In this document: positions 5,361 to 64,000 of the stretch, piece by piece | Numbering within the stretch: position 1 is the first letter of the stretch | How the letters are laid out: the number at the start of each line of letters is the position of its first letter | Assembly: GCF_009727055.1 (NCBI RefSeq) | Contig: NC_052357.1 | Location: 5,919,613-5,983,612 of the forward strand | Source: Benincasa hispida | Taxonomy: Eukaryota; Streptophyta; Magnoliopsida; Cucurbitales; Cucurbitaceae | Direction of reading: 5' to 3' | Length of the DNA stretch: 64,000 bases | Translations under genes and position numbers: made by a program | The notes under the pieces: model-generated | What the model was told of the DNA's origin: nothing | Databases searched by the model: none | The model's input: only the letters and a program-made list of their open reading frames with translations

Positions 5361-5639
5361 GAAACCTCGTGTGAACAGTAACTTTTGTGGTACTTTCCGA
5401 TTTTGTTCGAGGTTAATCTTGAAGAAGGCCTTCAAGGAGTTCGTAATTTATTCGAGGGAAACCGTGAAGAAAAGGTCTTCAAAATTTGGTTTCTTAAAAC
5501 CCTTTAATTCTTTATAAAACATGTTGTAATTTAGAATTAAATGCATATTTTGTTTACTGTAAACTTTGTATTCAATAAAAAATAGAAGTCGATCAATCCG
5601 CTTCCGTTCAAGGTTCTCTATCTTTAGAGTTCTTTCAAT

Positions 5640-5652
5640 TGGTATTAAAGCC
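5640..5652 (+). promoter_or_regulatory. Primer-binding site, tRNA-iMet type (diverged)
   Basis: TGGTATTAAAGCC lies two bases after the LTR end and matches the 3' end complement of initiator tRNA-Met (TGGTATCAGAGC) at 10 of the first 12 positions. The intact version is at 9,418. This site fixes the LTR 3' border and the plus orientation. Confidence 0.8.
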
Positions 5653-7412
5653 AGGTTGTAGGTTTTTTATTCCAAATTCCATTCTTTTATTGAATCATTT
5701 TACAGTATTGGTGAATTTTATTATCTGAATCTTGTCTCATGCTATGAATGGTTATGGATGTAATTTGTTGATGGATGTTTCGGGATAGAATGCTCTGTTT
5801 AAGGCTTTCTTTATTTAAAAAATTGGTTTGTAAAGGCCCCTGTGTGTTTGGGCATTAATCTTGCAATCAAATCTGTAATTTGTAAGTTTAAGTCGCTCGT
5901 GCTGTTCCCGAAAAGCTTCAAAGAAGAGTTGCAGAGTGTTATTTCAATGGAGAAGATGAAACAGAGATTCTATATCGTGGAGCTACAGCTAAACGATCGT
6001 GTAGCTCTTGCTATGTGATCATGTAGCTTTTGCTACACAATTGTATAGCATTTGCCAAATAACCGCGTAGCTAATGCTACGCAATCGTGTAGGGTTTGCT
6101 ACACGATCGTGTGACATTTGCTACAAGATCGCACAGTTGCTTGCTACAAGATCGTGTGAGTGCGATCTTTAGATGCTCATCACATAGTTGCTTGCTACAC
6201 GATCGTGCGGTCTCTAGATGCTCATCGCATAGTTGTTTGCTACACAATCACGCAGTCTTTCATGCTCATCGCATGGTTGCTTGCTACGTGATAGTGTAGT
6301 CTTTCCTACAAGATCACATAGATGTTCATCGCATAGTTCATTTGCTACACGATCAGCTGCAAAGTGGTTCTTTGAAGGGCAGTTCGGTTCGAGCGGTTCA
6401 AGACCTGGTTCACCTGTTTCGAATCGGTTGACTCAAATTTTGTAATAGTTAGCCTTTTCTTTTTTTCTTTTTAGAGGTCTTGTCCTGGTCCATCAACTGC
6501 TAGAGTAAATATACATACAATGTATGTTTTATGTTATATGTCATAATGTATGTCATATAGTTTTAAAATCCACCATATGTTATGCATTTATGTTCATGCA
6601 TCATTTTATATTATAAGTGTTATAATATATGAATATGCATGATTTAAATTTCATAAAGCATGCTTATGCATCATATAGTATTAATGTTGTAGTATATGTA
6701 TGCATACATTATAGCATATCCATGTATCATTTATATTATAATTGTTATAATATATGGTTGAATGGATGTAATTCATTACTTAGTTATATAATTGTTACAT
6801 ATTAGTAATGAATGAATATTGCATGAAGCATGACATTACCTTAGGTTAGTTTATAAATGTTATAATTAACTAAAGTATGTCTAGCATACAATGATTGTTT
6901 TTAATTGTTTCATTTATTTATAACTAAATGAAATTAGAATTAAAATTAATAACAAAGAGTTGCATGCAAATCTGAAACCATAATAATTTTTTAAAAATTA
7001 TTTTAAAATATGATTGAGATAGATCTAAGATCACATATTTCTAATAAGAAATCTAAGTTTAATCTTTCAATTGATTTCATAGGATTTTAATCGATTTCAT
7101 ATGATTAAATTGATTCTTAATAAAATATTAAATATGTAACAAATGTATTTATAAGGGACCTTTTGGCTAAGGCAGGTTATGGCTAGGCTGGGGTATTTAA
7201 GTCGATAGAAACGCCGCACCCCTACCTGGGAAACTACCTAGAAAGGTGAATTAGATAGATTTGTTATATGCATACAAATTTGACCAAAGTCTATTAAAGA
7301 GTAATGAGACTTCGATTAAAATTGTTTAATCATCAAAGACAAGAGTTGTTATTGAGCAAATTAAACAAATACTTAGATAAAATCAGTAGCCGAATTTTTC
7401 CTAAGTTAATTA
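5653..7412 (+). mobile_element. Copia leader without coding region
   Basis: Matches the leader at 9,431-9,817 and 20,193-23,330 (shared landmarks: tccaaattccatt, an 'ataagggacctttt' block near 7,152, and 'cacccctacctgg' near 7,217). No gag or pol follows: at 7,413 the sequence runs straight into another LTR of the same family. The element therefore looks like LTR-leader-LTR, either by internal deletion or by unequal recombination between leader copies. Confidence 0.75.
5985..6355 (+). repeat. Array of short CGATCG-centred palindromes in copia leader
   Basis: About ten degenerate units of roughly 30 bases, each with a core like CTACACGATCGTGTAG, a near-perfect 16-base palindrome, separated by TTGCT-rich linkers. 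Diverged versions of the array are in the other leader copies (9,765-9,805 and 20,027-20,480). It produces open frames on the plus strand, but these are repeat shadows, not genes. Confidence 0.75.
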
Positions 7413-9430: not shown

Positions 9431-9817
9431 AGGTTGTTTTGATATTCCAAATTCCATTATGTATTCAATTACATTTACAGTCTTGGTGGGTTTTCTATTT
9501 CTGCAATGCGTTTAAGTGTTAGATGTAATTGTGGTTGTGAATTGATGAATGTTTCAGGATGATTGCCTCTATTTGTTAAAGCTTCCTTTAAATTTCAAGT
9601 AAATTTGTTAGGGCCCTTGTGTTTTTGGGCATAATAACTTTGCTATTGAGTCTGTATTCAAAGTATTTGAGCTTTTAAGAGTCGTTCGTGATGAAGCTTC
9701 AACAAATGGAGATGTCATTCTCATCGAGGAAGAAGACCAAGGGTTGGTCTCATCATGTAGCCCAGGCTAAACGATCGTTTAGATTTGGCTACGCGATCGG
9801 TGTAGAAATGTTCTACT
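9431..9817 (+). mobile_element. Copia leader, left part, interrupted by gypsy element
   Basis: Continues like 5,653-6,040 and is cut at 9,817 by the first base of a Tekay-type LTR. The leader resumes after 20,007. The five bases before the insertion are CTACT; the matching right-hand copy is missing because the right border of the inserted element was lost at an adapter junction. Confidence 0.78.
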
Positions 9818-10004
9818 TGTGAACCCCGAATCCTAATTTCTCTACTTGAGTATGTTCCCTATTGAGATTAATGTGATGAGTAGGTTGATGTGGAAACTAG
9901 TGTGGAATGGTAGAGAAAAGAATGGAAATTAGAAGAAAAGAGGAAATTGGCGGGTTGATGCGTTGGAAGGCACACGAGTAGGCGAGGCATGCATGGAAAG
10001 GCAG

Positions 10005-10440
10005 CCCATACGTCGAGCAGCCTCGACCAGCGTTCAGGCCATGCATCAAGCAGCCTCGGCCAGCGTCCATGCCATGCATCGAGCAGCCTCGACCAGCGTT
10101 CAGGCCATGCATCAAGCAGCCTCGGCCAGCGTCCATGCCATGCATCGAGCAGCCTCGGCCGAACGCCCTGCCAATGCGTCGAGTGGACACGCCCATACGT
10201 TGAGCGCACTGCTGAGCGGCCACGCCTATGCGGTGAGCACCCTACCGAGCAGCCATGACGTGTGTCGAGGTGCCCTGCCATGCAGCCAAGCGCGCAGCCT
10301 ATGCCATGTGCCCATGTAGCAGAGCGAGCGAGCGATGGCTAGCACACGCCGCATGCGTCGAGCGGCCAACCCATTCAGCGCGCCTATGCATTGGTGGCCA
10401 GCACAATGCACCCATGCTAAGCAAGCCGTGCGAGTGAGCC
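10005..10440 (+). repeat. GC-rich minisatellite inside gypsy LTR
   Basis: Units of 33 and 66 bases (core CATCGAGCAGCCTCG and CAGCGTCCATGCCATG) repeat in tandem at about 10,010-10,165, then decay into looser GC-rich repeats. The 3' LTR has a diverged version at 17,925-18,400. Its base composition stands out sharply in an AT-rich window. All six frames stay open over long distances, giving false alanine/arginine-rich ORFs. Confidence 0.85.
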
Positions 10441-10835
10441 ATGCGTCGAGGATGGACGGTCACCCTCTGCGTTGGTGATGGTTAGCTCCTTGCGATGGCT
10501 AAGCTGAATTGTAATGATAGTGAATTGGCTTGCTATGCGTTGAGTAGAGGCTATGCGTTGTTTATGGACTAGGTGTTGAGCATCTAAGAGTTGGACACAT
10601 ACAAGGGTAAGGTCACATAGAAAACGTCATCAAAACCATGTGTCTTCTTAGAAGGAAAGCCTTAAGCCTTAAGAATTTGAAGTGGTGGAATCAAATTGGA
10701 GGCTCATGCGTTGGCAATATGGGAGTAAGATACTTAACTTGCGATGATCACAGCATTGCGTCGATGAGGTGAGAAGGAGACACTTGGCCATGCAGCCAAG
10801 TAGGTGGTGTCAACTCCAGAGAAGGTTTGGACGCC

Positions 10836-10845
10836 TATAAATAAA
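10836..10845 (+). promoter_or_regulatory. TATA box of gypsy 5' LTR
   Basis: TATAAATAAA, conserved at the same place in the 3' LTR (18,805-18,813, TATAAATAG) and in the inverted LTR (63,479-63,487). Its position downstream of the repeat-rich U3 part fits an RNA polymerase II start about 30 bases further on. Confidence 0.65.
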
Positions 10846-11692
10846 GCCATGAGACTTCATTTTTAGATCACAATTCAGAAATACCGTAAAAAGAGTGGAA
10901 GAGTGGAGCAAACCTTGTGTTGGAGCCAAATCCATGCGTTAGTCATAGATGACGCATTGGATAGAGAAGTCTGAAGAGGACGTATCAACTTGGGACGAAG
11001 AGTTCTCCCAATTTACTCGTGTGTTTGGAGTGATTTCAAAACCATCTAAAAGCTCTAAAAGTCTAGTTTTCAGGGTAGAGCTGCCGGAAGAAAATATCGA
11101 AGGAATCGGGCTAGAAACTGAGAGGAAGACAGAAGGGTCAGGCTGTCGGATCAGCTTGAGCCAGTCTTGAAGATTCTGTGATTTCGGCCAAACCACAAGG
11201 AGTTCTGAGCTCATATTTTAGGCTAAGCTTCCTGAGACATTTTAGAATATTTTTTTAGAAGTAAGTATTTCAAAATAAGGTCCAGAACTATGAGCAATCT
11301 AATTGTAAGTTAAATCTGGATTCTAGGGGTGAAAAGGGAGCCCGAGGTAGAAAATGGAGCAACTAGAATGAAAAGCTCCTAAGCAATCAAAGTGAGTGGC
11401 TAAAATGTTTTGACTAAAACATTTGCTTAAAATGTTTGATTACAACGTGTTATAGAAAGCATGTTTTAAAGAAGTTTATTCTCATGCCAGGTAGTTTTAC
11501 AAAGTGAATTCCAAGCAAACCATGAGTTATGTTTTAAACGCATGCATGTGTAGGAAATTGTTGAAAAGCGATTTATATGTGATAAATATACTCAGCATGC
11601 GTTAGTACCTTTAAAGCCATGTTTTTATATGTGTTATACTTTACATGCTTTAAAGAGAGAAAGTCATTTATGACTAGTTTTACTTAAAACAC

Positions 11693-11832
11693 GATACCGA
11701 AGGACATTTGAGAAGGTATCCACTCAACTAGATACTGAAGGACATTTGAGAAGGTATCTATTGGTATTGAAGGACGTTTGAGAAGGTATCAAACCAACCA
11801 GATATCAAAGGACGTTTGAGAAGGTATCTGAA
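11693..11832 (+). repeat. Four-copy tandem repeat in gypsy LTR
   Basis: Four units of about 37 bases with the core GAAGGACATTTGAGAAGG then TATC. The same array is in the 3' LTR (19,656-19,796) and inverted at 62,690-62,835. It lies downstream of the TATA box, so in the transcribed R/U5 part. Confidence 0.85.
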
Positions 11833-12544
11833 CAGAAGTACTTAAGGTATGACGGTACTTAGTATGGCCACGTGCACGTAGGTAGTTAGAGTCAGAGATT
11901 GAACAAAAAGGTTCTCTCTTGACTAGCAGTTGGTGTTAGGATTGTTTTATCCACAGTAAGATTATTCTCAACTGAGAAATAGTTTTACTGTTTTATGACT
12001 AGAACAACTTTATATGCTTTATGCTTGGAAAATGTTTACACTGCAGTACAAGTATTGTAAAAGCTTATATTTTAGTTTGAACTCTTATTTGAGATTTTGC
12101 ATGAGAATCAATTATCTTTCTTAAGTTACTCACTGGGCGTAAGCTCACCCCATTTTCAAATGCCCCCCCCCCCCTAAGTAGCGGTCAAATCCTCTAAAGA
12201 TAGCTTTGCATCTGCTCTGCCACTAAAGGAATAAGAGATTTGTAACCCGTCGGTTTAGGTGGTTACTGTTAATATTGTACACATGTTCCTGTTGTTCATA
12301 TAGGGACTAGGGTTTTTGGGTTTTAGGACTTGTGAATCTAGTGTTATAATGACTCTAAATATGTTATGTTTCTGAATTAATAAATTTTGGCCTAAATACA
12401 TTCCGTTGTATATAAGTTATATTTTGGTATCAGAGTTATTCTACAAGAATTATTAGGCAGTAAGTGTCAGCCAAAGGGTTGATAACTGCTGCAGTCACGC
12501 CCTTCTCTAGGCTAAGAGGGTGGTCTGGGGCGGGATGTGACAGC

Positions 12545-12763: not shown

Positions 12764-13890
12764 ATGTTGAAGAGAAGTGGCAAGCAGACCAAGTAGACTG
12801 AGGATAGGAATGTTGACCCTACCAGCGAAGGTTCTGAAGTTGGACGGGACCCAGATCCAAAGGGGAAAAGAGTTAAAGACTCAGTAGAGCAGGAAGCAAC
12901 TTCTGTAAATGAGTCGAGTACACCAAGGGTAGGTGTAGAACCTCAGATGGAGGATCGAGTATTTGATAGAATCACTCAAAGATTGGCGATAAGTGTAGGA
13001 TCGATTCAAAACGATCCAGAAAAGAAATTTGACGTCGAGAGGCTAAAAGCTTTGAAGCCACGACGTTCGATGGAGCCACAGATCCAGTAGATACTGAGAT
13101 CTAATTGGATTTGATTGAGAAATGTTTTAAGGTTATGAGATGCCCTGGGGACCGTAAGGTCGAGTTAGCGGCATTCTTGCTGCAGAAAGAGGCTGAGAAG
13201 TGGTGGAAAGTGATAGAGGCTAGAAGGAATAGTTCGGAAACTATGACTTGATCTGAATTCAGACAAGTATTTTAGGATAAATACTACCCTAGTTCTTTTA
13301 AAGAAGAAAAGAGGGAGGAATTCCTTAGGCTAACTCAGGGAGTGATGACGGTTGTTGAGTAAGAATAAAGTTTTACTGAGTTATCTCAGTATGCCCTTCC
13401 GATCATCGCGAAAGAAAAGGAGAGGTGTAGAAGATTTGAGAATGGCTTAAGAAGAAAGATATGTACACCCGTTACCTCAACATCCAATTGGGTAAATTTC
13501 ACTCAGTTAGTTGAGATCGCTATCCGAGTAGAGCAAAGTATAGAGAGGGAAGATGTACTCCAGCCAGGTGAAGGACAATTTAGAATGTCTGAAGAAACGC
13601 GAAGTAGGAGATTTAGACCCTCGTTCTCTGGACAATCGGGTATAAGGAGCTTTGGAGGCATGAGCCAACAAAGTTCAAGTCGAAAGAGGTCAAGACTTAT
13701 AGCTGGACAGAGTGGTAGATCAGTATCAGGTCATGCTAGCAAGTCAGTAGCTAGTATAGGGAGGAAACCGCTTTGTATAAACTGTAGAAAGCCTCATACA
13801 GGAGTATGTTATGGCAATAGGAATGTGTGCTTCCAGTGCGGACAAGCGGGACATTTCAAGAGAGATTGTCCTAGGTCATGGAGCACATAG
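12764..13890 (+). pseudogene. Ty3/gypsy (Tekay) gag, multiple stops and frameshift
   Basis: Gag of a chromovirus. The start at 12,764 gives a hydrophilic N-terminus with an early stop. The capsid core is recognisable from about 13,080 (LLQKEAEKWW, then FKEEKREEFL, then RRFENGL). The open C-terminal part from 13,585 is serine/arginine-rich and ends with CINCRKPHTGVC and the zinc knuckle CFQCGQAGHFKRDC. Several in-frame stops (for example near 13,100, 13,250, 13,275 and 13,365) and one frame change make it non-functional. It is followed by a duplication of its knuckle region. Confidence 0.85.
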
Positions 13891-14238
13891 TGAGCAAAGA
13901 GGAGTTACACAGACTGTAAACCAACCTAGAGCGACTGGAACTAGAGGAGAAGGATCCGGTATAGCTAAGTAGAAAGGGGTAGCTGGACGACCTCAACAGC
14001 AATAGCAACAGTAGCAGCAGGGTAGAGNATGTGTGCTTCCAGTGCGGACAAGCGGGACATTTCAAGAGAGATTGTCCTTAGCTAGGTCATGGAGCACATA
14101 GTGAGAAAAGAAGAGTTACACAAACTATAAACCAACCTAGAGTGACTGGAACTAGAGGAGAAGGATCCGGTATAGCTAAGTAGAAAGGGGTAGCTGGACG
14201 ACCTCAACAGCAATAGCAACAGTAGCAGCAGGGTAGAG
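13823..14238 (+). repeat. Tandem duplication around an N, gag zinc-knuckle region
   Basis: Unit 1 (13,823-14,027, 205 bases) and unit 2 (14,029-14,238, 210 bases) are nearly identical, both beginning ATGTGTGCTTCCAGTG and ending GGTAGAG. A single N at 14,028 separates them. They differ by a five-base insertion and a few substitutions. A duplication centred exactly on an N is typical of imperfect gap closure, so it may not exist in the plant. Confidence 0.85.
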
Positions 14239-14246
14239 TATACACT

Positions 14247-14777
14247 ATGACACACCAGGAAGCGGAAGAGGCTTCAGATGTCGTAACTGGTACGATAACT
14301 TTAGGTAATCAATCTGCTTATGCATTATTTGATCCTGGTGCTACGCATTCATTCATATCTAGCATGTGTGCATTACATATAGATAGAGTACCTGAGTGTA
14401 TGAATGAGGATTTGTTTATCTCTACGCCTGTAGGAGATACTCTAGTTGTACACGAGTATTACAAGAATTATGATGTAATTCTTGGAAATCAGAGTTTATG
14501 GGTTGACTTGATTCCATTAGAATTACTAGAGTTTGATGTTATCTTAGGTATGAATTTTCTAAATAAACACTATGCCAGTTTTAAAAGAGAAATAGTGTTT
14601 AGAAAACTAGGTGAAAAAGAAATAACCCTGATGGGAAGTAAAAGAATACTTCCAAGAAGCTTAATATCAGTAGTAAAGGCTAGAAAATTGTTGAGTAAGG
14701 GATGCGAAGCCTATTTAGCCTATGTAGCAGTTTCACAGGATAAGAAACTGAAACCTGAGAATGTACCTATGGTATAA
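14247..14777 (+). pseudogene. Gypsy pol: retropepsin domain
   Basis: Aspartic protease of the Tekay polyprotein. The catalytic loop reads ALFDPGATHSF (D-P-G-A in place of the usual D-S-G-A), and the second half shows DVILGMNFL. An in-frame stop at 14,775 separates it from the reverse transcriptase. The start given is simply the first methionine of the open stretch; in an intact element this would be part of a Gag-Pol fusion. Confidence 0.85.
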
Positions 14778-16268
14778 GAATTCTTAGATGTATTCCCTGA
14801 AGAATTACCAGGTTTACCACCTAACAAAGAAATAGAGTTTACTATTGAGTTAGTTCTGGGTACAGTACCCATATCCCAGGCACCATATAGGATGGCACCA
14901 ACAGAACTAAAAGTTCAGTTATAGGAACTTGTAGATAAGGGGTACATTAGACCCAGTGTGTCACCTTGGGGAGTGCCAGTCTTGTTTGTTATGAAGAAAG
15001 ACGGTACTTTTAGATTATGCATAGACTATAGACAATTGAATAAGGTGACCATTAAGAATAAGTACCCATTGCCTCGTATAGATGATCTCTTCGATCAGTT
15101 AAAGGGAGCCACGGTGTTCTCTAAGATAGGTTTGAGATCAGGTTATCACCAGTTGAAGTTGAAAGGCACAGATGTTCCAAAGACTGCATTCAGAACTAGA
15201 TATGGACATTTTGAGTTCCTAATAATGCCGTTTGGATTGACAAATGCTCTTGCGGTATTTATGGACTTGATGAATAGAATATTTCATCATTATTTGGATC
15301 AATTTGTGATAGTTTTCATAGATGATATACTAGTGTATTCTAGTAGTGTAGAGAAGCACAAGGAACATCTAAGGATGGTGTTACAGATTCTAAGAGAAAA
15401 GGAGTTATGTGCCAAATTTAGTAAGTGTGATTTTTGGTTAAATCAAGTCGTATTCCTTGGGCATATAGTTTCAGCTGACGAAGTTAGCATTGATTCCCAA
15501 AAGATAAAAGCAATAGTTAACTGGGAACGACCCCTGAATGTAACCGAAGTATGTAGTTTTCTAGGCTTAGCAAGTTATTATAGGAGATTCGTGGAGGGTT
15601 TTTCTAAGATAGCTCTACCATTGACAAAGTTAACCAGAAAAGATGCGAAGTTTGAGTGGTCGCCAGAATGTGAGCATAGTTTTCAGGTATTGAAACAGAG
15701 GTTAGTATCAGCACCAGTAACTCTACCTACACCAGGTAAGGAGTTTGAGGTTTATTGTGATGCATCCCAACAAGGGTTAGAATGTGTGCTGATGCAGGAG
15801 GGAAAGGTAGTAGCTTATGCTTCTCGACAGTTAAAGAAGCATGCATGTAACTACCCTACACATGATTTGGAGTTAGCAGCAGTTGTGTTAGCTCTAAAGT
15901 TGTGGAGACATTACCTGTTTGGTGAGCGGTGTCATATATTTACGGATCATAAAAGTCTAAAGCATATCTTTGATCAAAAGGAACTAAACTTGAGACAGAG
16001 AAGATGGCTCGAATTGATCAAAGACTATGACTGTACCATTGACTATCACCCAGTTAAAGCAAATGTAGTAGCTGATGCTTTAAGTCGAAAAACTAGATCA
16101 GCTAGAGCTAGTATCAATTCAGTGAAGGGTACACTGATTCATGAGTTATATAATGCTAGGGCAGCATTATCAATCGGTAAAAAAGGAGGGTTATTAGCTT
16201 CATTTCAAGTGCGTCCTACCCTCGTAGAAGATATTCTACGTGAGCAATTAAAGGATTCTGATTTTTAG
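14778..16268 (+). pseudogene. Gypsy pol: reverse transcriptase and RNase H
   Basis: The linker (EELPGLPP) and RT begin just after the stop at 14,775; a second stop is at about 14,922 and the rest is open from 14,958. RT motifs in order: [48 protein letters not shown] and the catalytic [10 protein letters not shown] (two aspartates near 15,320). The RNase H part has YCDAS near 15,755, DLELAAVV and FTDHKSL. The frame closes at 16,266. The motif spelling is typical of chromoviruses. A dead copy because of flanking stops, but the catalytic residues remain. Confidence 0.92.
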
Positions 16269-16295
16269 AAGTTAGCTGAGGAAGTAGATAAAGGA

Positions 16296-17475
16296 TTGAG
16301 GACGGACTACCAATTAAGAGCTGACAGAGTGCTATTGAAAAAAGGTAGGATATGCGTACCTAAGGACTTATCACTTAAACAAGCTATTCTAGAAAAAGCA
16401 CATAGTTCGGGCCCATGTTATGCATCCGGGCAGTACGAAGATGTACAAAATATTAAAGAGATCGTACTGGTGGCCTGGTATGAAAAGAGAGATAGCAGAG
16501 TATGTTGACAGGTGCCTAATATGTGAACAAGTTAAACCAGAAAGACAGAGGCCAATAGGATTACTTAATCCACTTTCAGTACCAGAGTGGAAATAGGAGT
16601 ATATTACGATGGATTTCTTGTTTGGATTACCTAAGACACCAGCGAGCTATGATGGTATATGGGTAATTGTGTATAGATTGACAAAAATAACTAAGTTTTT
16701 ACCTATTAAAGTTACTTATACCCTAGACCAATTAGCTAAGCTATATGTTGATTGAGTCGTAAGTCAGTTTGGAGCTCCAGTTTCAATTGTATCAGATCGA
16801 GACTTCAGATTTATATCAAAGTTTTGGCCTAGTTTGCAGAAAGCTATAGGAACCAAGTTTTATTTTAGTACCACTTTTCGTCCAAAAATGGATGGTCAGT
16901 CTGAGCGGACAATCCAGACATTAGAGGACATGCTGAGAGCATGTGTGTTGCAATTTAAGGGCAGTTGGGATACACATCTGTCATTAATCGAATTTGCATA
17001 TAACAACAGTTACCATTCGAGTATCGGGATGGCACCGTATGAGGCACTATACGGAAGGCCATGTAGGACTCCGATATCCTGGAATGAAGTGGGTGAAAGG
17101 AAATTACTAGGTCCAAAACTTGTACAACAGACACTGGATAACATTAAGATTATAAGAGATAATCTTAAGACGGCCCGAGATAGGCAAAAAAGTTACACTG
17201 ATAAGCAGAGAAGAGAATTAGAGTTTGAAATTGGTGATAAAGTATTTTTGAAGTTATCTCTATGGAAAGAAATACTTAGGTTTGGTAGGAAAGGGAAATT
17301 AAGCCCAAGATATATTGGACCTTATGAGATAATAGAAAAAGTCAGTCCAATGGCGTATAGAATGAATTTACCTCCAAAATTATCTCATATTCATGATGTG
17401 TTTCATGTGGCAATGCTTAGAAAGTATGTGCCAGATCTTACCCATGTGTTGCCTAATCAACCAGTACAGTTGTGA
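16296..17475 (+). pseudogene. Gypsy pol: integrase, frameshifted
   Basis: The zinc-binding N-terminus (HSS..., then CLICEQ near 16,515) is split by small indels near 16,410-16,500. Stops are at about 16,594 and 16,755. The catalytic core residues can be followed: D in TMDFLFGLP, D in IVSDRDF and E in GQSERTIQ (about 16,900). The C-terminal open part (16,834-17,475) includes APYEALYGRPCRTP, the GDKVFLK strand and the GPYEI / FHVAMLRKY region. Domain order PR-RT-RH-IN confirms Ty3/gypsy. Confidence 0.9.
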
Positions 17476-17697: not shown

Positions 17698-19968
17698 TGT
17701 GAACCTCGAATCCTAATTTCTCTACTTGAGTATGTTCCCTGTTGAGATTAGTGTGATGAGTAGGTTGATGTGGAAACTAGTGTGGAATGATAGAGAAAAG
17801 AATGGAAATTAGAAGACAAAAGGAAAGTTGGAAAAAATTGGCTAAGTATAGAAATTTGCGGGTTGATGCGTTGGAAGGCACACGAGTAGGTGAGGCATGC
17901 ATGGAAAGGCAGCCCATGCATCGAGCAGCCTCAGCCACACCCATGCAATGTGTCGAGCAGCCTCGGCCAGTGCCCAGGCCATGCGTCGAGCAGCCTCGGT
18001 CAGCGCCTAGGCTATACGTCGAGCAGCCTCGACCAGCGCCCATGCCAATGCATGCATCGAGCAGCCTCGACCAGACGCCCTGCCAATGCGTCGAGCGGAC
18101 ACGCCCGTGTGTTGAGTGCACTGCCGAGCGGCCACGTCCATGCGGTGATCACCTTGTTGAGCAGCCATGTAGTGCGTCAAGGTGCCCTGCCATGCAGCCA
18201 AGCGCGTAGCCCATGCCATGCGCCCAAGTAGCTGAGCGAGCGAGCGATGGCCAGCACACGTCGCACGCCCATGCGTCGAAGTAGCACATCCATGCACCTA
18301 AGCACCTGGCCAAGCACGCCCATGCATCGAGCGGCCAACCCATGCAATGTGCCTATACGTTGGTGGCCAGCACCATGCACCCATGCCAAGCAAGCCGTGC
18401 GAGTGAGCCATGCGTCGAGGATGGACGGTCACCTTATACGTTGGTGATGGTTAGCTCCTTGCGATGGCTAAGTTAAATTGTAATGATAGTGAATTGGCTT
18501 GCTATGCGTTTAGTAGAGGCTATGCATTGTTTATGGACTAGGCGTTGAGCATCCAAGAGTTGGACGCATACAAGGGTGAGGTCACATAGAAAATGTCATC
18601 AAAACCATGTGTCTTCTTGGGAGGAAAGCCTTAAGCCTTAAGAATTTGAGGTGGTGGCATCAGATTGGAGGCTCATGCGTTGGCAACATGGGAGTAAGAC
18701 ACTTAGCTTGCGATGATCATAACATTGCGTTGATGAGGTGAGAATGAGACACTTGGCCATGCAGCCAAGTAGGTGGTGTCAACTCCGGAGAAGGTTTGGA
18801 CGCCTATAAATAGAGCCATGAGATTTTTAGATCACAATTCAGAAATACCATAAAAAGAGTGGAAGAGTGGAGCAAACCTTGCGTTGGAGCCAAATCCATG
18901 CATTAGTCATAGAGGACGCATTGGACAGAGAAGTCTAAAGAGGACGCATCAACTTGGGATGAGGAGTTCTCCTAATTTACTTGTGCGTTTAGAGTGATTC
19001 CAAAGTCATCTGAAAGCTCTGAAAGTATAGTTTTTAGGGTAGGGTTTATGGAAGAAAAGCTCGAAGCGATCGGGCTGGAAACTAAGAGGAAGACAGAAGG
19101 GTTAGGCTGTGAAATCAGCTTGGGCCAGTCATGAAGATTCTGTGATTTCGGACAAACCACGAAAATTTCTAAGCTCAAATTTTAGGCTAAGCTTCTTAAT
19201 ACATTTTAGAATAGTTTTGTAGAAGGAAGTATTTCAAAATAAGGTCCAGAATTATGAGCAATCTAATTGTAAGTTGAATCTGAATTCTAGGGGTGAAAAG
19301 GGAGCCCAAGATAGAAAAGGGAGCTACTAGAGTGAAAAGCTCCTAAGCAATCAAGATGAGTGGCTAAAACGTTTTGACTAAAACATTTGCTTAAAATATT
19401 TGATTACAACATGTTATAGAAAGCATGTTTTAAAGAAGATTATTCTCATGGCAGTTAGTTTTACAAAGTGAATTCCAAGCAAACCATGAGTTATGTTTTA
19501 AATGCATGCATGTGCGAGAAATTGTTGAAAAGCGATTTATATGTGTTAAATATACTCAGCATGCGTTAGTACCTTTAAAGCCATGTTTTTATATGTGTTA
19601 TACTTTACATGCTTTAAAGAGAAAGTCATTTATGACTAGTTTTACTTAAAACGCGATACCGAAGGACATTTGAGAAGGTATCCGCCCAACTAGATACTGA
19701 AGGACATTTGAGAAGGTATCTATTGGTACTGAAGGACGTTTGAGAAGGTACCAAACCAACCAGATACTGAAGGACGTTTGAGAAGGTATCTGAACAGAAG
19801 TACCTAAGGTATGACGGTACTTAGTATGGCCACGTGCACGTAGGTAGTTAGAGTCAGAGATTGAGCAAAAGGGTTCTCTCTTGACTAGCAGTTAGTGTTA
19901 GGATTGTTTTATCCACAGTAAGGGTTATTCTCAACTGAGAAATAGTTTTACAGTTTTATAATTAAAAC
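17698..19968 (+). mobile_element. Tekay-type gypsy 3' LTR, right end missing
   Basis: Begins TGTGAACC like the 5' LTR and follows it through the minisatellite, the TATA box (18,805) and the four-copy repeat, but stops at a point equivalent to about 12,002 of the 5' LTR. The final 540 or so bases are replaced by a sequencing-adapter junction at 19,969. The truncation coincides exactly with the adapter, so it is most likely an assembly fault and not a deletion in the plant. Confidence 0.88.
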
Positions 19969-20006
19969 CTGTCTCTTATACACATCTAGATGTGTATAAG
20001 AGACAG
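19969..20006. other. Nextera mate-pair junction adapter (assembly artefact), copy 1
   Basis: CTGTCTCTTATACACATCT followed directly by its reverse complement AGATGTGTATAAGAGACAG: 38 bases, two 19-base Tn5 mosaic ends head to head. From memory this is the circularisation junction of Illumina Nextera mate-pair libraries. It should never be in a genome; the sequences on either side were joined from separate ends of a mate-pair fragment. Confidence 0.97.
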
Positions 20007-20026
20007 CTCTATGCATGGCACGCGTG

Positions 20027-20319
20027 CTAAACAATTGAGTAGGCCAACATACTCATCGCATAGTCACTAGCTACTCGATCACTCGGTATGCGATACTTGA
20101 TGCTTTCTTCTCGATTGTTTAGATGATCATGCTTTATCACATAGTTGTCGTCCTGTCTCTTATACACATCTAGATGTGTATAAGAGACAGAACTAAACGA
20201 TCAAGTAGGCCCAACATACTCATCGCATAGTCACTAGCTACTCGATCACTCGGTATGGGATACTAGAGGCTTACTGCTCGATGGTTTAGAGGATCATGCT
20301 TGATCACATAGTTGTCGTC
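20027..20319 (+). repeat. Duplicated copia leader segment around adapter copy 2
   Basis: 20,027-20,152 and 20,193-20,319 are two diverged versions of the same leader segment (shared CATAGTCACTAGCTACTCG and ATCACATAGTTGTCGTC), differing at roughly one position in ten. They are separated by the adapter at 20,153-20,190. The divergence suggests two different genomic copies of the repeat were stitched together. Confidence 0.85.
20153..20190. other. Nextera mate-pair junction adapter (assembly artefact), copy 2
   Basis: A second perfect 38-base copy of the two head-to-head 19-base mosaic ends, only 146 bases after the first. Its flanks are alternative versions of the same repeat, as described for 20,027-20,319. 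Confidence 0.97.
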
Positions 20320-21066
20320 TACTCGATCGTTTCAGCATGCATTACACGATGTGTGCTACACTATCGAGTGGCCTTCATGCTTCATTGCATAGTCATAGGC
20401 ACTCGATCCATGCTGCACGATTGTTTATACTCGTTCAGCGTTACTCGACGATCACAAGGAGCAACTATACGATCAAGGAACAAGGCTTCGCCCGGGCGGT
20501 TCAAGACCCGGTTCGCCTGTTTGAACCAGTTGGCTCGATGGTTTTTGTAATAGATAGTTTTTCTTTTCCAGTTTTTTAGGCTAATTATCCCGATCCATTG
20601 ATTTTTAATGAATGTACATGTGATGTATGTTTAATTATGTGTCATAAAGTATGCCATATAGTTTTAAAACCCACCATAGGTTATGCATTTAGTCATACAT
20701 CATCTTTATATATAAGAGTTATGATATAGTAGCTTGCATGAATGAATTACTTTAAAGCATGCTTGTGCATCATATAATATAAGAGTTATAATATATGCAT
20801 GCATTAAGCATATCCATGCATCATTTTTATATTATAAGTGTTATAGTATAAGGGTGTATGAAAGCATGTATGCTTGGTTCATTATAAGTTATATAAGAGT
20901 TATATATAGTAATAAATGAACATTGCATGAAGCATGACACTTAGGTTAACTTATAAAAGTTATAAATACCTAGTCCAGCTTAGCAATGTTGTTGGTTTTA
21001 GTTGTTTCTTTTTATAAGAGTTATAATAGAAATTAGAACTAAAATCAATAAAAAAGACACAGGTTT
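20320..21066 (+). mobile_element. Copia leader, middle part
   Basis: Continues the leader interrupted at 9,817; it matches 6,355-6,960 (for example the GGTTCAAGACC... block at about 20,498 and the series of ataatatatg / catgcat motifs). It is broken at 21,067 by an inverted LTR-like insertion. It has no coding content; short open frames are chance. Confidence 0.72.
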
Positions 21067-51852: not shown

Positions 51853-53532
51853 TGATAACGGACAGAAATGCACGTTATTACAGTACGAATAAGTAAAACA
51901 ATGAGGGAATGCGACGGTAAAAATATACAAAATCATGTCTAAAAGCGGTAAACTGAGAATATTGCGATCGCATGCGCCCATCGCATAAAAGCAGCTAATT
52001 TACTTATTTTGTGCAGGAAAAATGTGTTGGCATAAGTAACATTGCGATCCAAGGAATTCGGCGTCTGCGCGCATTGAAAGATTACGACCGCAAAGTCATG
52101 CGATCGTATGCGCTTGCGAGAAGTTGCTCAAGAAGGTGGCCGCATAAAGACGACACATCAAGGTGAAAGCTTAATAAATCATGATGGGATAGAAAGCTGA
52201 TGATGGTCGAATCCGAATTTAGTTGACAAGCTGTTAATGACACACTGTAGCAAGTACATTCAACTTTTCGGTGACCATTAATCGACGCATCAGATAGAAG
52301 ATTTAATGACCTCCCATCATTGCAATCATTAGAGAGAAAAGATTCTTCACTTTGAGCTCTATAAATACCGAAGGCCGCCATCGATAAAGGAGTTCGCCAT
52401 ACAAAAGATAGATCATATATAAATTAAATAGCTATTAGTTTGTAGTTATTCATATACTTAGAAGGCGAAGGCGAGTGAAGAGAAGAAGATGCCGGGAGGA
52501 CATTTCTGGACAGCTCGAAAGACTGTCGGGAAGCGCTATAAAAGGAGAGAGGGCCGACACTTACGAAAGCAAGGATATTCTTCTGGGCAGAGTAGAGTAA
52601 AAAGACAGTGTAAAAGCCACAGGAAGAAAGACATTGCTACCAGACTTCTTATCTCTACTTTCCATTGTTGTTTTGTATTTTGACTTTATTTATAAAATGG
52701 AATTCTTATCTCAACATCTATTCAATCTCTTCACATTTCACATGAGTAGCTAAATTTCCGAATGGGCTGAGAAGTACTTAGCTAGCATGACCTAGGATCT
52801 TCACTTTATGCGATCATCTTGTCTTATGTATGTGCTATTCACCCTTTAGAGATACTTGAGAGAGTAGTTTAAAGAAAGAATCTAGGCTTGAGAGAGTCAA
52901 ATTAGAATATAGGCTTGAGAAAATTAGATTAGAATCGCATTGGCAAGAGATAGAAACTTAGACATAAGTTCTGTTTGCTATTATGCATCGCATGCACCCT
53001 AGAAATAGGATATGATAGTATGCGGTCGCCTTGTGTATGTATGCATCATTCATCACTGCATAGACAAGAATAGAGGCTTAGACATAAGTCCTATCAACAT
53101 TATCGTATACATCGCATGCATCCTAAAAATAGGAACCATGACATTTGCATTGAGGGATGACATGCTGTTGTGTGTGTGTGTGTAGCATGATCGCATAACT
53201 TGAATGCAATCTTAGGAAGTGTTAGCTAAATCCCTTCTCAACCCGTTCATCGCATACTCATTGTATTCTCGATTTCATCAACTCTTTAAACAAATCCATC
53301 GCATAGGATTTATACTTAAACAAAACATCAACCAACTTATTTGTTTTTTCCACCGCAAAGGAATCAATTTTATTGTCGCATAGTATCTCAGTAGTCCTTG
53401 TGTTCGACCTTGGACTTACCAGGAAACCTAGTGAGATTTATACTTGGGTTTTACTAGGAAAACATGCATGTGCAACGCATAAATCATCATCACAATTATA
53501 CACCATTATTTCATCACATTTACAATGCATCA
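51853..53532 (+). mobile_element. Athila-type LTR (TGATAACGGACAG family), copy A
   Basis: TG...CA ends (TGATAACGGACAG to ATGCATCA), 1,680 bases, with a TATA box TATAAATA at 52,360-52,367 and the end block TTCGACCTTGGACTTACC. A tRNA-Asp-type primer site follows at 53,539. Aligns along its length with 54,421-56,007. Confidence 0.9.
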
Positions 53533-53538
53533 AGTTTT

Positions 53539-53556
53539 TGGCACCGTTGCCAGGGA
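53539..53556 (+). promoter_or_regulatory. Primer-binding site, tRNA-Asp type
   Basis: TGGCACCGTTGCCAGGGA, one or two changes from the tRNA-Asp complement used by Athila elements. Six bases after the LTR. Confidence 0.85.
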
Positions 53557-53768
53557 CTATGACAGTACATATTGCGCTAACAGTAACTTTTTTATTTTCT
53601 TGGCAGCTTTCGACCTCTGTGCACTACCTCTCCTTTGGTAAGGGAAGAAACAGGGGTCGTATGAGTGAAGGACACGTTCCGGAGCCCAACTACGACCCAG
53701 AGATTGAAAGAACGTTCCGAAGAAGACAGTGAGACAACCTCCGATAACAGCAAGAGAGAAATCCTCGA

Positions 53769-54380
53769 ATGGCGGAAAAACCGGAAGACAGAGTAGCAAA
53801 TGCGAACAATATCATGGCAAACCCCATTCTCTTGGCGAACGACCATAATAGACCCATCTGGGACTATGCATTGCCCAACATCTATGATTTCTCCCTAGGA
53901 ATCATGAGGCCAGCTCTGGACGGATCGAGGTTTGAGATGAAGTCAGTTATGTTGCAGATGATTTAGACGGCCGAACAGTTTGGTGGAAGATGTGGCGAGG
54001 ATTCACATGCCCATTTCTGGAGTTTCATCGAAATTTGCAATACTTTTGTGTTCCCAAACATCTCAGCTGAAGAAGTTCGACTAACGTTGTTCCTATTTTC
54101 GCTATGCGACCAAGCAAGGAAATGGGTCTATTCTCTCGAACCAAGAGAGATAACGTCTTGGGAACAAGTAGTAGAGATGTTCATGAAGAAATACTTCACC
54201 CTGACCGAGAATGCAAGAAGGAGGAAGTTGATTACAAATTTTGAACAAGAAATTGATGAATCGCTCAACAATTCCTGGGCGAGGTTTAAGAGACTGGTGC
54301 GAGATTGTTCGCACAACTGCTTACCTGATTGTCTTCAAATGGAAATCTTCAAATGGAGACTGATGCGAGAAAATCTTTAG
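53769..54380 (+). pseudogene. Athila-type gag, C-terminally deleted
   Basis: Starts MAEKPEDR, then NPILLANDHNRPIWDY, LPNIYDFSLGIMRP, a stop at about 53,965, and in the next frame-continuous part the retrotransposon gag core (EEVRLTLFLFSLCDQARKW, SWEQVVEMFMKKYF, FKRLVRDCSHNCLPDC). At about 54,350, where copy B continues with more gag, this copy jumps to the 3' untranslated segment and the polypurine tract. The pol gene is entirely absent, so the element is nonautonomous. Confidence 0.88.
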
Positions 54381-54407
54381 TTTATGCTTGAGGACAAGCA
54401 TTGTTTT

Positions 54408-54420
54408 AAATTTGGGGGTA
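54408..54420 (+). promoter_or_regulatory. Polypurine tract of Athila-type element
   Basis: AAATTTGGGGGTA directly before the LTR start TGATAGTGGG at 54,421. It shows that the LTR at 54,421 is the 3' LTR of the element starting at 51,853. Confidence 0.8.
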
Positions 54421-56007
54421 TGATAGTGGGCAGAAATACACGTTATCACAGCGCAAGTAAGTAAAACAATGAGAGAATGCGACGGTAAAAATATACAAAA
54501 TCATGTCCAAAAGCGGTAAACTGAGAATATTGTGATCGCATGTTCCCATCGCATAAAAGCAGCTAATTTACTTATTTTGTGCAGAAAAAATGCATTGGCG
54601 CAAGTAACATTGCGATCCAAGGAATTCGGCGTCTGCGCGCATTGAAAGATTACGACCGCAAAGTCATGCGATCGTATGCGCTCGTGAGAAGTTGCTCAAA
54701 AAGGTGGCCGCATAAAGATGACGCATCAAGGTGAAAGCTTAATAAATCATGATGGGACGGAAAGCTGATGAAGGTCGAATTCAAATTTAGTTGACAAGCC
54801 GTTAATGACACACTATAGGAAGTACATTCAACTTTTTGGTGACCATTAATCGGCGCATCAGACAGAAGATTTAATGACCTCCCATCATTGCAATCATTAG
54901 AGAGAAAAGCTTCTTCATCTTGAGCTCTATAAATACCAAAGGACGCCATCGATAAAGGAGTTCACCATACAAAAGATAGATCATATACAAATTAGATAGC
55001 TGTTAGTTTGTAGTTATTCATATACTTAGAAGGCGGAGGCGAGTGAAGAGAAGAAGATGTCGGGAGGACATTCCTGGACAGCTTGAAAGACTGCCGGGAA
55101 GCGCTATAAAAGGAGAGAGGGCCGACACTTGCGAAAGCAAGGATATTCTTCTAGGTAGAGTAGAGTAAAAAGACAGTGTAAAAGCCACGGGAAGAAAGAC
55201 ATTGCTACCAGATTTTTATCTCTACTTTCCATTGTTGTTTTGTATTCTGACTTTATTTATAAAATGGAATTCTCATCTCAACATCTGTTCATTCTCTTCA
55301 CATTTCGCATGAGGAGCTAAATTTTCGAATGAGCTGAGAAGTACTTAGCTAGCATGGCCTAGGCTTGAGAGAGTTAGATTAGAATCTAGGCTTGAGAAAG
55401 TCAGATTAGAAATGCATAGGCAATAGATAGAAACTTAGACATAATTTCTGTTTGCTATTATGCATCGAATGCACCCTAGAAATAGGATATGATAGTATTC
55501 GGTCACCTTGTGTATATATGCATCATTCATCACCGCATAGACAAGAATAGAGGCTTAGACATAAGTCCTATCGACATTATCGTATAGATCGCATGCGTCC
55601 TAGAAATAGGAACTATGGCATTTGCATTGAGAGACGACATGCTATTGTGCGTGTGTGTAGCATGATCGCCTAACTTGAACGCAATCTTAGGAAGTGTTAG
55701 CTAAATCCCTTCTCAACCCGTTCATCGTATACTCATTGTATTCTCGATTTCATCAACTCTTTAAACAAATCCGTCGCATAGGATTTATACTTAAACAAAA
55801 CACCAACCAACTTATTTGTTTTTGCCACCGCAAAGGAATCAATTTTACTGTCGCATAGTATCTCAGTAGTCCTTGTGTTCGACCTTGGACTTACCAGGAA
55901 ACCTAGTGAGATTTATATTTGGATTTTACTAAGAAAACTTGCATGTGCAACGCATAAATCATCATCACAATTATCCACCATTATTTCATCACATTTACAA
56001 TGCATCA
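54421..56007 (+). mobile_element. Athila-type LTR, copy B (shared by two tandem units)
   Basis: 1,587 bases, TGATAGTGGGCAG to ATGCATCA, with a TATA box at 54,928-54,935. It is closely similar to copy A apart from a deletion near 55,360. It serves as 3' LTR for the unit on the left and 5' LTR for the unit on the right, because a primer site and gag follow it. Confidence 0.9.
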
Positions 56008-58967: not shown

Positions 58968-60401
58968 TAATAATGGGCAGAAATGCACGTTATCATAGTG
59001 CTAAATTCTTAAACAATGTTGGATTGCGTTGATAAAACATGTTAAATTGCATCCATCAAACATCAATTTCATAATATTGCGGTCGCATGTGTTCATCGCA
59101 TAGGAACAATTGATTTTAGTGTTTTTATGTAGAATATGCGTTGACGCAATGCAAGAATTGCGATCATAGGAAATTATAGGTTGAGCGCAGCATCACCGCA
59201 AGGCTTTGCGGTGATAGTGTTTGTAAATATTCGCCCGAGAAAGATCGCCGTAACTTGGTCAGCGTAACATGGTGGGTGCATCTGGGTGAAAGGCTAATTA
59301 ATCGCAATGGGACAGAAAGCTGATAGCAGTCAGATCCTGTCTCTTATACACATCTAGATGTGTATAAGAGACAGGCTCAGGGAAACTCGAGAGAGAACCT
59401 TGAGGCGAAGAAGCAGAGAGTGGGCCGACTCTCGCGAGAGCGAGATTATCTTTTGAGAATGAGTAGAAATCAGTGTAAAAGCCCGAGCAGTAAGAGATTG
59501 CTTCCAGGCCCTTTATTCTATACTTGAACTGTTATTTTGTACTTCATCTCCATATTTATACAATGGAAGTTCTATTTCTACATCTATTCACTCTCTTAGC
59601 ACCCATGAGTAGCTAAACTAGTCGAATGGGTTGAGGAAAACTAAGCTAACATGACCTAGGAAATTCATTTCTTGCGATTGTCTTATTTTATGTTGTGCCA
59701 AATACCCTTTAGAGCTACTTGAGAGAGAGTCTAAAGAAAGAACCCAATGACTCGAGAGAGCTAGGTTAGAATCTGGACTCGAGAGAGTAAGATTAGAACT
59801 GCATAAACAAGAGATAGAGACTTAGAGATAAGCTCTGTTTGTCAACCTGCATCGCATGCATCATAAAGATGGGAATGATATTATGTGGTCGCCTTATTTG
59901 TGTGTGTGTCATTTCGTCATCGCATAAATAAGAATAGAGGCTTATGTGTAGGTCCTATAGACTTAGCGCATATATCGCATGCGTTCTAGCCTTAGAAGCC
60001 GTGACATTCGCACAAAGAGATGGTTTACTATTGTATGCATGTTGCATGATCGCATAGCATGAACGCATCTTAGGAAGTTTTAGCCAAAACTTTTCTCAAC
60101 CCGTTCACCGCATACTCATCGCATTTCCCATTTATCAACGCTTTTCGAACTCCACCGCATTTGTTTATTTTTCATCAACGTAAACAACAACCCCAACACT
60201 TTATTAATTTATCTGGTTATTGCAAAGTTTTATAAAAATTACCAACGCAACCTGTTTTCACAAGTCCCTGAGTTCGACCCTGGACTTACCAGGAAACTCA
60301 GTGGAATTTACACTTGGATTCCGCTGAGGAAACTTGAGTGCACAACGCAATTTCATTAATGCATATCATCCACATTTCCACTTCAATAAAATAACACATC
60401 A
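58968..60401 (+). mobile_element. Solo LTR inserted in a minus-strand pol
   Basis: LTR of the TGATAATGGGCAG family (start reads TAATAATGGG, one change) ending CACATCA. It divides the minus-strand integrase exactly between NFDLE and the GEARKL block. Flanks CCTTC (58,963-58,967) and CCTCC (60,402-60,406) form a 5-base target duplication with one mismatch. It is about 250 bases shorter than copy A, the loss lying at the adapter at 59,337. No internal region. Confidence 0.82.
59337..59374. other. Nextera mate-pair junction adapter (assembly artefact), copy 3
   Basis: A third perfect 38-base head-to-head pair of the 19-base mosaic end. The left flank corresponds to about 52,205 of LTR copy A and the right flank to about 52,480, so about 270 bases of LTR, including the TATA box, are missing at the junction. 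Confidence 0.97.
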
Positions 60402-61970: not shown

Positions 61971-64000
61971 TGTCGCACCCCGCCCCAGACCACCCTCTTA
62001 ACCTAGGAAAGGGTATGACTGCAGCAGTTATCAACCCCTTTTGTTGACACTTACTGCCTAATAACTCTTGCGGAATAACTTTGATACTAAGATATAACTC
62101 ATATACAACGGAATGCCTTTAGGCCCAAAATTTATAAATTCATAAACATATTATGTTTAGAGTAATTACAACACTAGATTCACAAGTCCCAAAGCCCAAA
62201 ATCCTAGTTCCTATATGAACAACTATAACATGTGTACAATATTTACAGTAACCATCTAACAGACGGGTTACAATATCTTTATCCTTTAGTGGCAGAGCAA
62301 ATGCAGAGCTATCTCCTGAGGATTTGACCGCTACCTAGGGGAAAGGAAAACATTTGAAAACGAGGTGAGCTTGCTAGCCCAGTGAGTGACTTAAGAAAGA
62401 TAACTGATTCTCATGCAAAAGTTTCAAATAAGAGTTTAAACTAAAGTATAAACTTCTATAGTACCTTGTACTGCGGTATAAATATTTTCTAAGCATAAAA
62501 CATATAAAGCTGTTTAAATCATGAAACAGTAAAACCGTTTCTCAGTTGAGAATAACCCTGCTGTAGTTAAAATTAATCCCAACACCAATTGCTAGTCAAG
62601 TGAGAACTCTTTTGCTCAATCTCTGACTTCAACTACGTACGTGCACGTGGCCATACTAAGTACTGTCATACCTTAGGTACTTCTGCTCAGATACCTTTTC
62701 AAATGTCCTTCAGTATCGAGCTGCTATGATACCTTCTCAAATTTTTTCGATATCAAGTGGGTTTGGTACCTTCTCAAACGTCCTTCAGTACCAAGTTGGT
62801 TAGATACCTTCTCAAATGTCCTTCGGTATCGCATTTTAAGTAAAACTAGTCATAAATGACTTTTTCTTTAAAGCATGTAAAGTATAACACATATAAAAAC
62901 ATGGCTTTAAAGATACTAATGCATGATGGGTAGATTTAACACATATAAATAGCTTTTCAAAAAACTTCCCACACATGCATGCGTTTAAAACATAACTCAT
63001 GGTTTGCTTGGAAATCACTTTGTAAAACTAGCTGGCATGAGAATAATCTTCTTTAAAACATGCTTTCTTTAAGATATTGTAATATTTTGTCAAATATTTT
63101 AGTCACTCACCTCGATCGCTTAGGAACTTTTTACTCTAGAAGTTCAAGACTGGCCCAAGCTTATCCGATAGCCTGACCCTTATGTATTCTTCTTAGTTTT
63201 CAACCCAATCCTTTAGAGCTTTTTATCCGGCAGCCCTACCCTGAAAAATAGACTTGCAGAGATTTCAGGTGGCTTTGGAATCACTCTAAACGCATGAGCA
63301 TATTGGGAGAGCTCCTCGTCCCAATTTGATGCTATTTTCCAGACTTCACCATCCACTGCGTCCCCCTTGAAGCTTTATGATCAATGCATGGATTTTGCTC
63401 TCAACGCAATGTTTACTCAGATTACCCACTCTTTTTAATGTATTTTTGAATTTTGATCTAAAAATGAAGTCCTTGGCCCTATTTATAGGCGTCCAAACAC
63501 TCTCCAAGGTCGACACCTCCTACTTGGCTACATGTCCAAGTGTTTCTTCCTCACATTATCAATGCAATGTTTAATCAACGCAATGTAAGGTGTCCTTCTC
63601 CTACATTGCCAACGCATGGGGCTTAATTTGCATGTCTCCTCATGCACCCACCTCAAATTCTTAATACTTAAGGTTTCCTCTCAAGAAGACACATGTTTGA
63701 TGACGTCCTCTATGTGAGCTCATCTTTCATATGCATCCACAACCCTTGGATGTTCAACGCATAGTGCCATCAATGCATAACAACCCTTTGTTCCACTTGG
63801 TTTTCCAACACACCACCACCGCAACCCATCTTAGTCACTGCAAGCCTAATCATCGCAAGAGCCAGCCACCACCAACGCATAGGTTGGCCGCTCGTCCTTA
63901 ACGCACAGCTCACTCGGCATCACTGCAAGGCTCGCTTGGCATCGACGCATGGCGCTTGGCATAGGCGCTCGTCACCGACGCATGGGCATGTGGCATAGGC
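61971..64000 (-). mobile_element. Tekay-type gypsy LTR, minus strand, runs off the window
   Basis: Inverse of the LTR at 9,818-12,542: on the minus strand it ends GGGTGCGACA at 61,971 and includes the four-copy repeat (62,690-62,835), the TATA box (63,479-63,487) and GC-rich repeat material from about 63,780 on. There is no primer site to its left, so it is a solo LTR or the 3' LTR of a minus-strand element lying mostly beyond 64,000. It inserted in, or next to, the RT part of the Athila pol (five flanking bases TTAAT). Confidence 0.88.

Follow-up and report, generated by a model that had tools for sequence, protein, structure and literature searches.

The 38-base block that follows a truncated LTR retrotransposon in the wax gourd (Benincasa hispida) genome is a laboratory adapter, an artefact foreign to the plant's DNA. 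Exact copies of it number three in the window, by which we mean the whole stretch of 64,000 nucleotides that was analysed (NC_052357.1, positions 5,919,613 to 5,983,612), and 9,991 in the whole assembly (912,946,352 bases in 1,791 records; reversed control, 0), a density of about one per 91 kb. That the 38-mer is a library artefact is virtually certain. Carry-over of adapter into the assembly, together with false gap closure, is very probably the overall explanation, and false gap closure is likely the main route by which the junctions arose, the joining step being one that we infer. New here are the scale at which the 38-mer pervades this assembly, the two further copies in the window (J2 and J3, beside J1), and the evidence that J1–J3 are within-locus false gap closures and not long-distance chimeras. 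Among the literature matches listed, no title pointed to an earlier account of such contamination in the draft genome of wax gourd.

J1 consists of CTGTCTCTTATACACATCT followed by its own reverse complement, an exact and perfect palindrome of 38 bases, and this match bears out the reading given in the initial annotation, namely two 19-base Tn5 mosaic ends placed head to head. The further proposal made there, that the block is the Nextera mate-pair circularisation junction, agrees with print: the identical 38 bases appear as a biotin-labelled ring adapter for circularising fragments of about 4 kb (PMC7357533), and NextClip searches for and clips, as a unit of 38 bases, the 19-bp adaptors that are added by the transposase and joined on circularisation (PMC3928519). 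The location of the block had been given exactly, but it had been taken as a single copy, with J2 and J3 unlisted (Table 1). When the 19-mer was searched at up to three mismatches, six were found in the window against 0.02 expected, and these make up the three head-to-head pairs; the other Illumina adapter motifs that were tried gave no match in the window. Since the search of the whole assembly for the 38-base junction returned thousands of exact copies, J1 is no single accident. The count is itself a lower bound, because exact matching skips adapter copies without their terminal bases. Copies short by one to a few terminal bases were seen in L134 (at 4090) and L144 (near 3878), so that exact-match counts are too low.

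Table 1. Features of the window that bear on the three adapter junctions.
Feature	Position	Strand	Remark
CTACT target duplication	9813..9817	+	precedes the 5' LTR; present once at the matching site in L173, L174 and L176
5' LTR	9818..12542	+	full length, TG...CA; by sequence comparison
gag-pol region	13369..17475	+	broken frames; Pfam domains on separate pieces
3' LTR, cut by J1	17698..19968	+	537 bp shorter than the 5' LTR
J1	19969..20006	.	mate-pair junction adapter, a palindrome of two facing 19-base Tn5 mosaic ends; exact match
146-bp host-repeat piece between J1 and J2	20007..20152	+	second version of the 20193–20319 interval
J2	20153..20190	.	second exact 38-mer; maps to one interval in 5/5 intact copies
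Host repeat to the right of J2	20191..20500	+	39 or more other copies elsewhere in the assembly
J3	59337..59374	.	third exact 38-mer; about 290 bp missing, two window paralogs concur

As an independent test, the chemistry of the adapter can also be recognized at its edges, where bases were read outward at distinct ends, 99 of them from wax gourd and 288 from public prokaryote contigs. Base 1 is G at 44 of the wax gourd ends (p=1.4e-9) and 129 of the prokaryote ends (p=7.6e-15), base 9 is C at 38 and 116 of them, respectively (p=1.7e-6 and p=6.0e-10), and in the pooled ends bases 4, 5 and 6 are mostly C/T, A/T and A/G. These edges agree with the core of the published Tn5 target pattern, AGNTYWRANCT (PMC8525568), of which only the T at base 3 and the A at base 7 show faintly or not at all here. 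The adapter edges are Tn5 cut ends, as a pool and not copy by copy. No 9-bp duplication surrounds J1, J2 or J3, and in the sample of 53 junctions described below an exact repeat of the end of the left flank at the start of the right one is 9 bp long in none and 10 bp long in one (overlaps of up to 59 bp examined); as the 9-bp duplication is absent, the two edges of each copy come from separate cuts. Sequence identity, print and the pooled cut-site signature together demonstrate that untrimmed adapter was carried into the assembly. With the Nextera mate-pair adapter the block shares all 38 bases, the 19+19 structure known from NextClip and the Tn5 target pattern at the edges. That adapter, however, is normally found in a read, where it marks the two ends of a 2–8 kb fragment, whereas the 38-mer of the window lies within an assembled chromosome and joins the sides of a gap in the right order.

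The element that is cut by J1 is a gypsy-type (Ty3) LTR retrotransposon, as judged by its two LTRs, the CTACT duplication on its left and its gag-pol region in gypsy order. The Pfam domains follow one another as zf-CCHC, RVP_2, RVT_1, RT_RNaseH and SH3_Tf2-1, that is, zinc knuckle, protease, reverse transcriptase-RNase H and the C-terminal part of the integrase; the integrase core had no Pfam match in the piece searched. From an intact gypsy (Ty3) element it differs in that the end of the 3' LTR and the second duplication are absent owing to the adapter, and in its broken frames, which are partly due to the N at 14028. This N, the only one of the window, lies inside an unmerged overlap (13822–14238), in which about 205 bp before the N recur after it; the repeated piece includes the zinc-knuckle stretch, so that an assembly fault of another kind than the adapter interrupts the gag frame. 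The last base of the 3' LTR corresponds to position 12005 of the 5' LTR, and 537 bp of LTR are therefore missing, which confirms the truncation by about 540 bases that had been noticed initially. The LTR does stop at the block, its exact end being the base before it (19968) and not, as first stated, the first base of the block itself. Over 2,180 sites, the 5' and 3' LTRs are 91.5% identical. CTACT is found to the left of the element only; the adapter directly follows the cut LTR in place of the expected second copy, which had rightly been reported as missing and which would fall within the lost stretch. The LTR end missing at J1 is kept in a third copy (62509–61971, minus strand). The stretch 61971–64000 (minus strand) is a third and more distant LTR of the same family, about 80–81% identical to the other two, and reaches the end of the window.

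The host DNA at the insertion site of the element belongs to a dispersed repeat, of which the stretch at 20191–20500 has its further copies at 83–88% identity on many chromosomes (the figure in Table 1 being 41 matches minus the window's own and the 146-bp piece). Five copies were read (L173, L174, L175, L176 and L177), and none of the five contains the adapter. In three of them (L173, L174 and L176) the match to the left host flank ends in CTACT at the element's insertion point, and the match to the right flank of J1 starts 131–132 bp past CTACT on the same strand; L175 and L177 are without the stretch around the insertion point and hence uninformative on J1. The same order of the J1 sides is found in a looser paralog inside the window (5529–6958). 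The three uninterrupted copies of the insertion locus sustain the original claim that the bases on either side of J1 are not neighbours in the plant. The loss comes to about 537 + 5 + 131 = 673 bp, made up of the LTR end, the second target duplication and host DNA. Judged by sequence comparison, the two sides of J1 come from a single locus, where they lie about 0.67 kb apart with order and strand as they should be.

At J2, the stretches to the left (20027–20152) and to the right (20193–20319) both correspond to one interval in all of the intact copies L173–L177, and as this interval is single there, some 127 bp are present twice at J2 only through the artefact. Because the two versions are only about 91% identical, another genomic copy is the probable source of the 146-bp piece that separates J1 from J2. 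A natural tandem array at 20007–20319 was considered and rejected on the grounds that the interval is single in five of five intact copies; Tandem Repeats Finder reported no array at 19900–20600. For J3, two paralogs in the window (51.9–52.8 kb and 54.4–55.4 kb) concur on the loss of about 290 bp, with the left flank ending at 52201 and 54769 and the right flank starting at 52505 and 55076, respectively, at about 75–79% identity. The region 51853–55945 is composed of two tandem copies of a stretch of about 2.5 kb, which are 92–96% identical to each other in parts and about 73–79% identical to the neighbourhood of J3. Taken together, these comparisons show the sides of J1, J2 and J3 to stand in the right order and on the right strand, with loss or repetition of bases between them.

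Joins of this kind could be brought about by the palindrome itself. Untrimmed adapter pairs of the Nextera mate-pair type stayed in the reads and entered the assembly, and reads or contig tips that reach the end of a fragment run into the 38 bases. Any two such ends, from either strand, would then overlap perfectly over 38 bases, and in a presumed assembly step the left and right edges of a gap would be joined through the adapter, a false closure. The sides so joined would be neighbours in the right order, with the intervening bases lost, as at J1 and J3, or repeated, as at J2, and adapter tips that hide a true overlap would give rise to junctions with a repeated piece. As to the published assembly, the B227 draft of wax gourd is given as 912.95 Mb (PMC9905507) or 913 Mb (PMC6856369), and if the present assembly is B227, its construction drew on mate-pair libraries, five in number and of 2 and 8 kb (PMC6856369). 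According to the same paper, contigs were assembled from paired-end reads with ALLPATHS-LG, scaffolded with the mate pairs and gap-filled with PacBio reads; the word Nextera is absent from its text, a point against the proposed account. The B227 draft is reported to have 2,197 scaffolds (397 of them assigned to the 12 linkage groups), as against the 1,791 records here, and is listed with 26,315 contigs (PMC9905507).

How widely these patterns hold was seen in a sample of 53 junctions, which comprises the first 50 exact junctions of C1 (L132–L171; L128–L131 were omitted, being contained in L132–L135) and the three of the window. A direct copy of 34–213 bp abuts the adapter on both sides (at most 30 bp off) in 23 of the 53, as compared with 0/53 when the right flanks were swapped and 13 of 1,000 random adapter-free positions; a non-abutting direct match is present in two of the remaining junctions, and 28 have no flank match. 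The repeated pieces are identical in 12 of the 23 and at most 95% identical in five (J2 included), and where the versions differ in this way, the two ends come from different molecules. The 23 are not all independent, since three belong to one loop in L146 and two to L170, and two of them are short or weak (the first junction of L146, and L165). In L146 (4000–4538; G000:C1:2861251–2861789), four adapters have an exact 129-bp unit between and after them with a period of 167, as if the assembly path had circled a small ring several times, and in L170 a 90-bp unit is repeated. Inverted copies about the palindrome were rejected as a pattern, as none of the 53 junctions reaches the threshold of 34 (highest value, 29). 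The sampled places have no N beside the 38-mer, and a run of at least three N within 500 bp was found at none of the 53.

Against false gap closure stand the 28 junctions without a flank match and the two with a non-abutting one, the true distance being fixed, among these, at J1 and J3 alone. A different origin that suits part of the sample is self-ligation of tiny fragments, by which a piece of 30–210 bp closes on itself and is read on both sides of the adapter, sometimes over several rounds; the 12 identical pieces fit such circles as well as or better than they fit gap closure, and the repeated rounds in L146 and L170 fit them too. Tiny circles cannot, however, account for J1, for J3 or for the other junctions that have no repeated piece, nor can they explain J2 and the other pieces at 95% identity or below, and as an alternative to false gap closure they are very unlikely. 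Alongside it they may well explain part of the junctions, and both routes may be at work. In a plain circularisation chimera, a mate-pair molecule of 2–8 kb would have been read through, and the right flank would come from one insert upstream of the left. This is what the adapter marks in a single read (PMC3928519), and the mate-pair libraries were indeed of 2 and 8 kb (PMC6856369), but the intact copies and paralogs at J1 and J3 place the right flank downstream, hundreds of bases off, which rules such a chimera out for these two junctions. Moreover, in 20 C1 loci searched over 4 kb on each side, a range that 8-kb inserts exceed, the only near-identical upstream copies of the right flank are those that abut the adapter, the other upstream matches being one of 88.5% in L151, about 0.48 kb away, and a weak one in L141; the chimera is very unlikely to be the explanation. 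Finally, it is vanishingly improbable that the 38-mer is real plant sequence, be it an insertion of Tn5 type or a palindromic repeat of natural origin, for although its very many copies, sharp borders and transposase target pattern would suit this reading, the J2 interval is adapter-free in the intact copies, unrelated contigs of bacteria and viruses carry the same 38 bases, these appear in print as an adapter for laboratory use (PMC7357533), the 9-bp duplication is never seen among the 53 junctions, and its absence at the window copies rules out a real Tn5 insertion.

In the prokaryote species set, at least 120 stretches carry the 38-mer, from 19 named organisms among the matches listed. Of the 147 junctions in these listed matches, 26 have a copy that abuts the adapter, 19 have a direct match that is non-abutting, 100 have none and two are too short. 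Runs of N occur no more than 500 bp away at 37 of them and no more than 50 bp away at ten, as raw counts for stretches in which N makes up 57,388 of 931,861 bases. Some of the loci (L025, L101, L115 and L120) are in records titled chromosomes (CP051244.1, CP017948.1 and NZ_CP051236.1). The exact 38-mer is present in 5 of 72,556 plasmid records (two of Klebsiella and one each of Serratia, Cronobacter and Escherichia) and absent from an E. coli collection of 5,426 genomes and from 50,697 phage records. IMG/VR holds seven stretches, and four of these, all from one metagenome, have the adapter at most 10 bp from the contig end, which is where it should lie if contigs break off on reaching it.

Whether genes continue across the adapter was examined in 50 of the 120 listed loci (human-associated ones being among those omitted), which yielded 27 junctions with open pieces on the same strand on both sides; for ten of these, the left and right pieces were scanned separately against Pfam. 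In L014, one acyltransferase domain continues across the adapter with about 80 profile positions missing, and in L099 lipoyl and E3-binding domains are followed, beyond the adapter, by the catalytic domain that belongs to this type of enzyme. Repeat domains flank the adapter in L020, a result that agrees with continuity but says little, the sides of L091 and L100 match different families, and the other five have no match on one or both sides. Gene continuity, which favours false gap closure, is supported in two of the ten bacterial junctions and undecided in the rest; that so few clearly continue one gene, and that L091 and L100 differ across the adapter, speaks against false gap closure. The occurrence of the 38-mer in at least 19 named prokaryote assemblies suggests that the same hidden closures exist there.

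Clearly, the 38-mer is an artefact and not biology, yet it is able to corrupt the biology that is read off this assembly. The loss of the LTR end and of the target duplication at J1 would mislead the dating of LTRs and the counting of elements, J2 and many other places present a false tandem duplication (34–213 bp in the sample), and a gene model that crosses a copy of the 38-mer would be broken. It is rather likely that gaps were closed unnoticed at about ten thousand places in the assembly, with the order kept but the distance wrong (from about −213 to about +670 bp where this was seen). If so, the contig count understates how fragmented the assembly is, and truncated LTRs and short tandem duplications that adjoin the 38-mer are artificial. 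Since a hidden gap probably lies at each copy, the 38-mer can be used to list some ten thousand positions that deserve a second look in this widely used crop reference.
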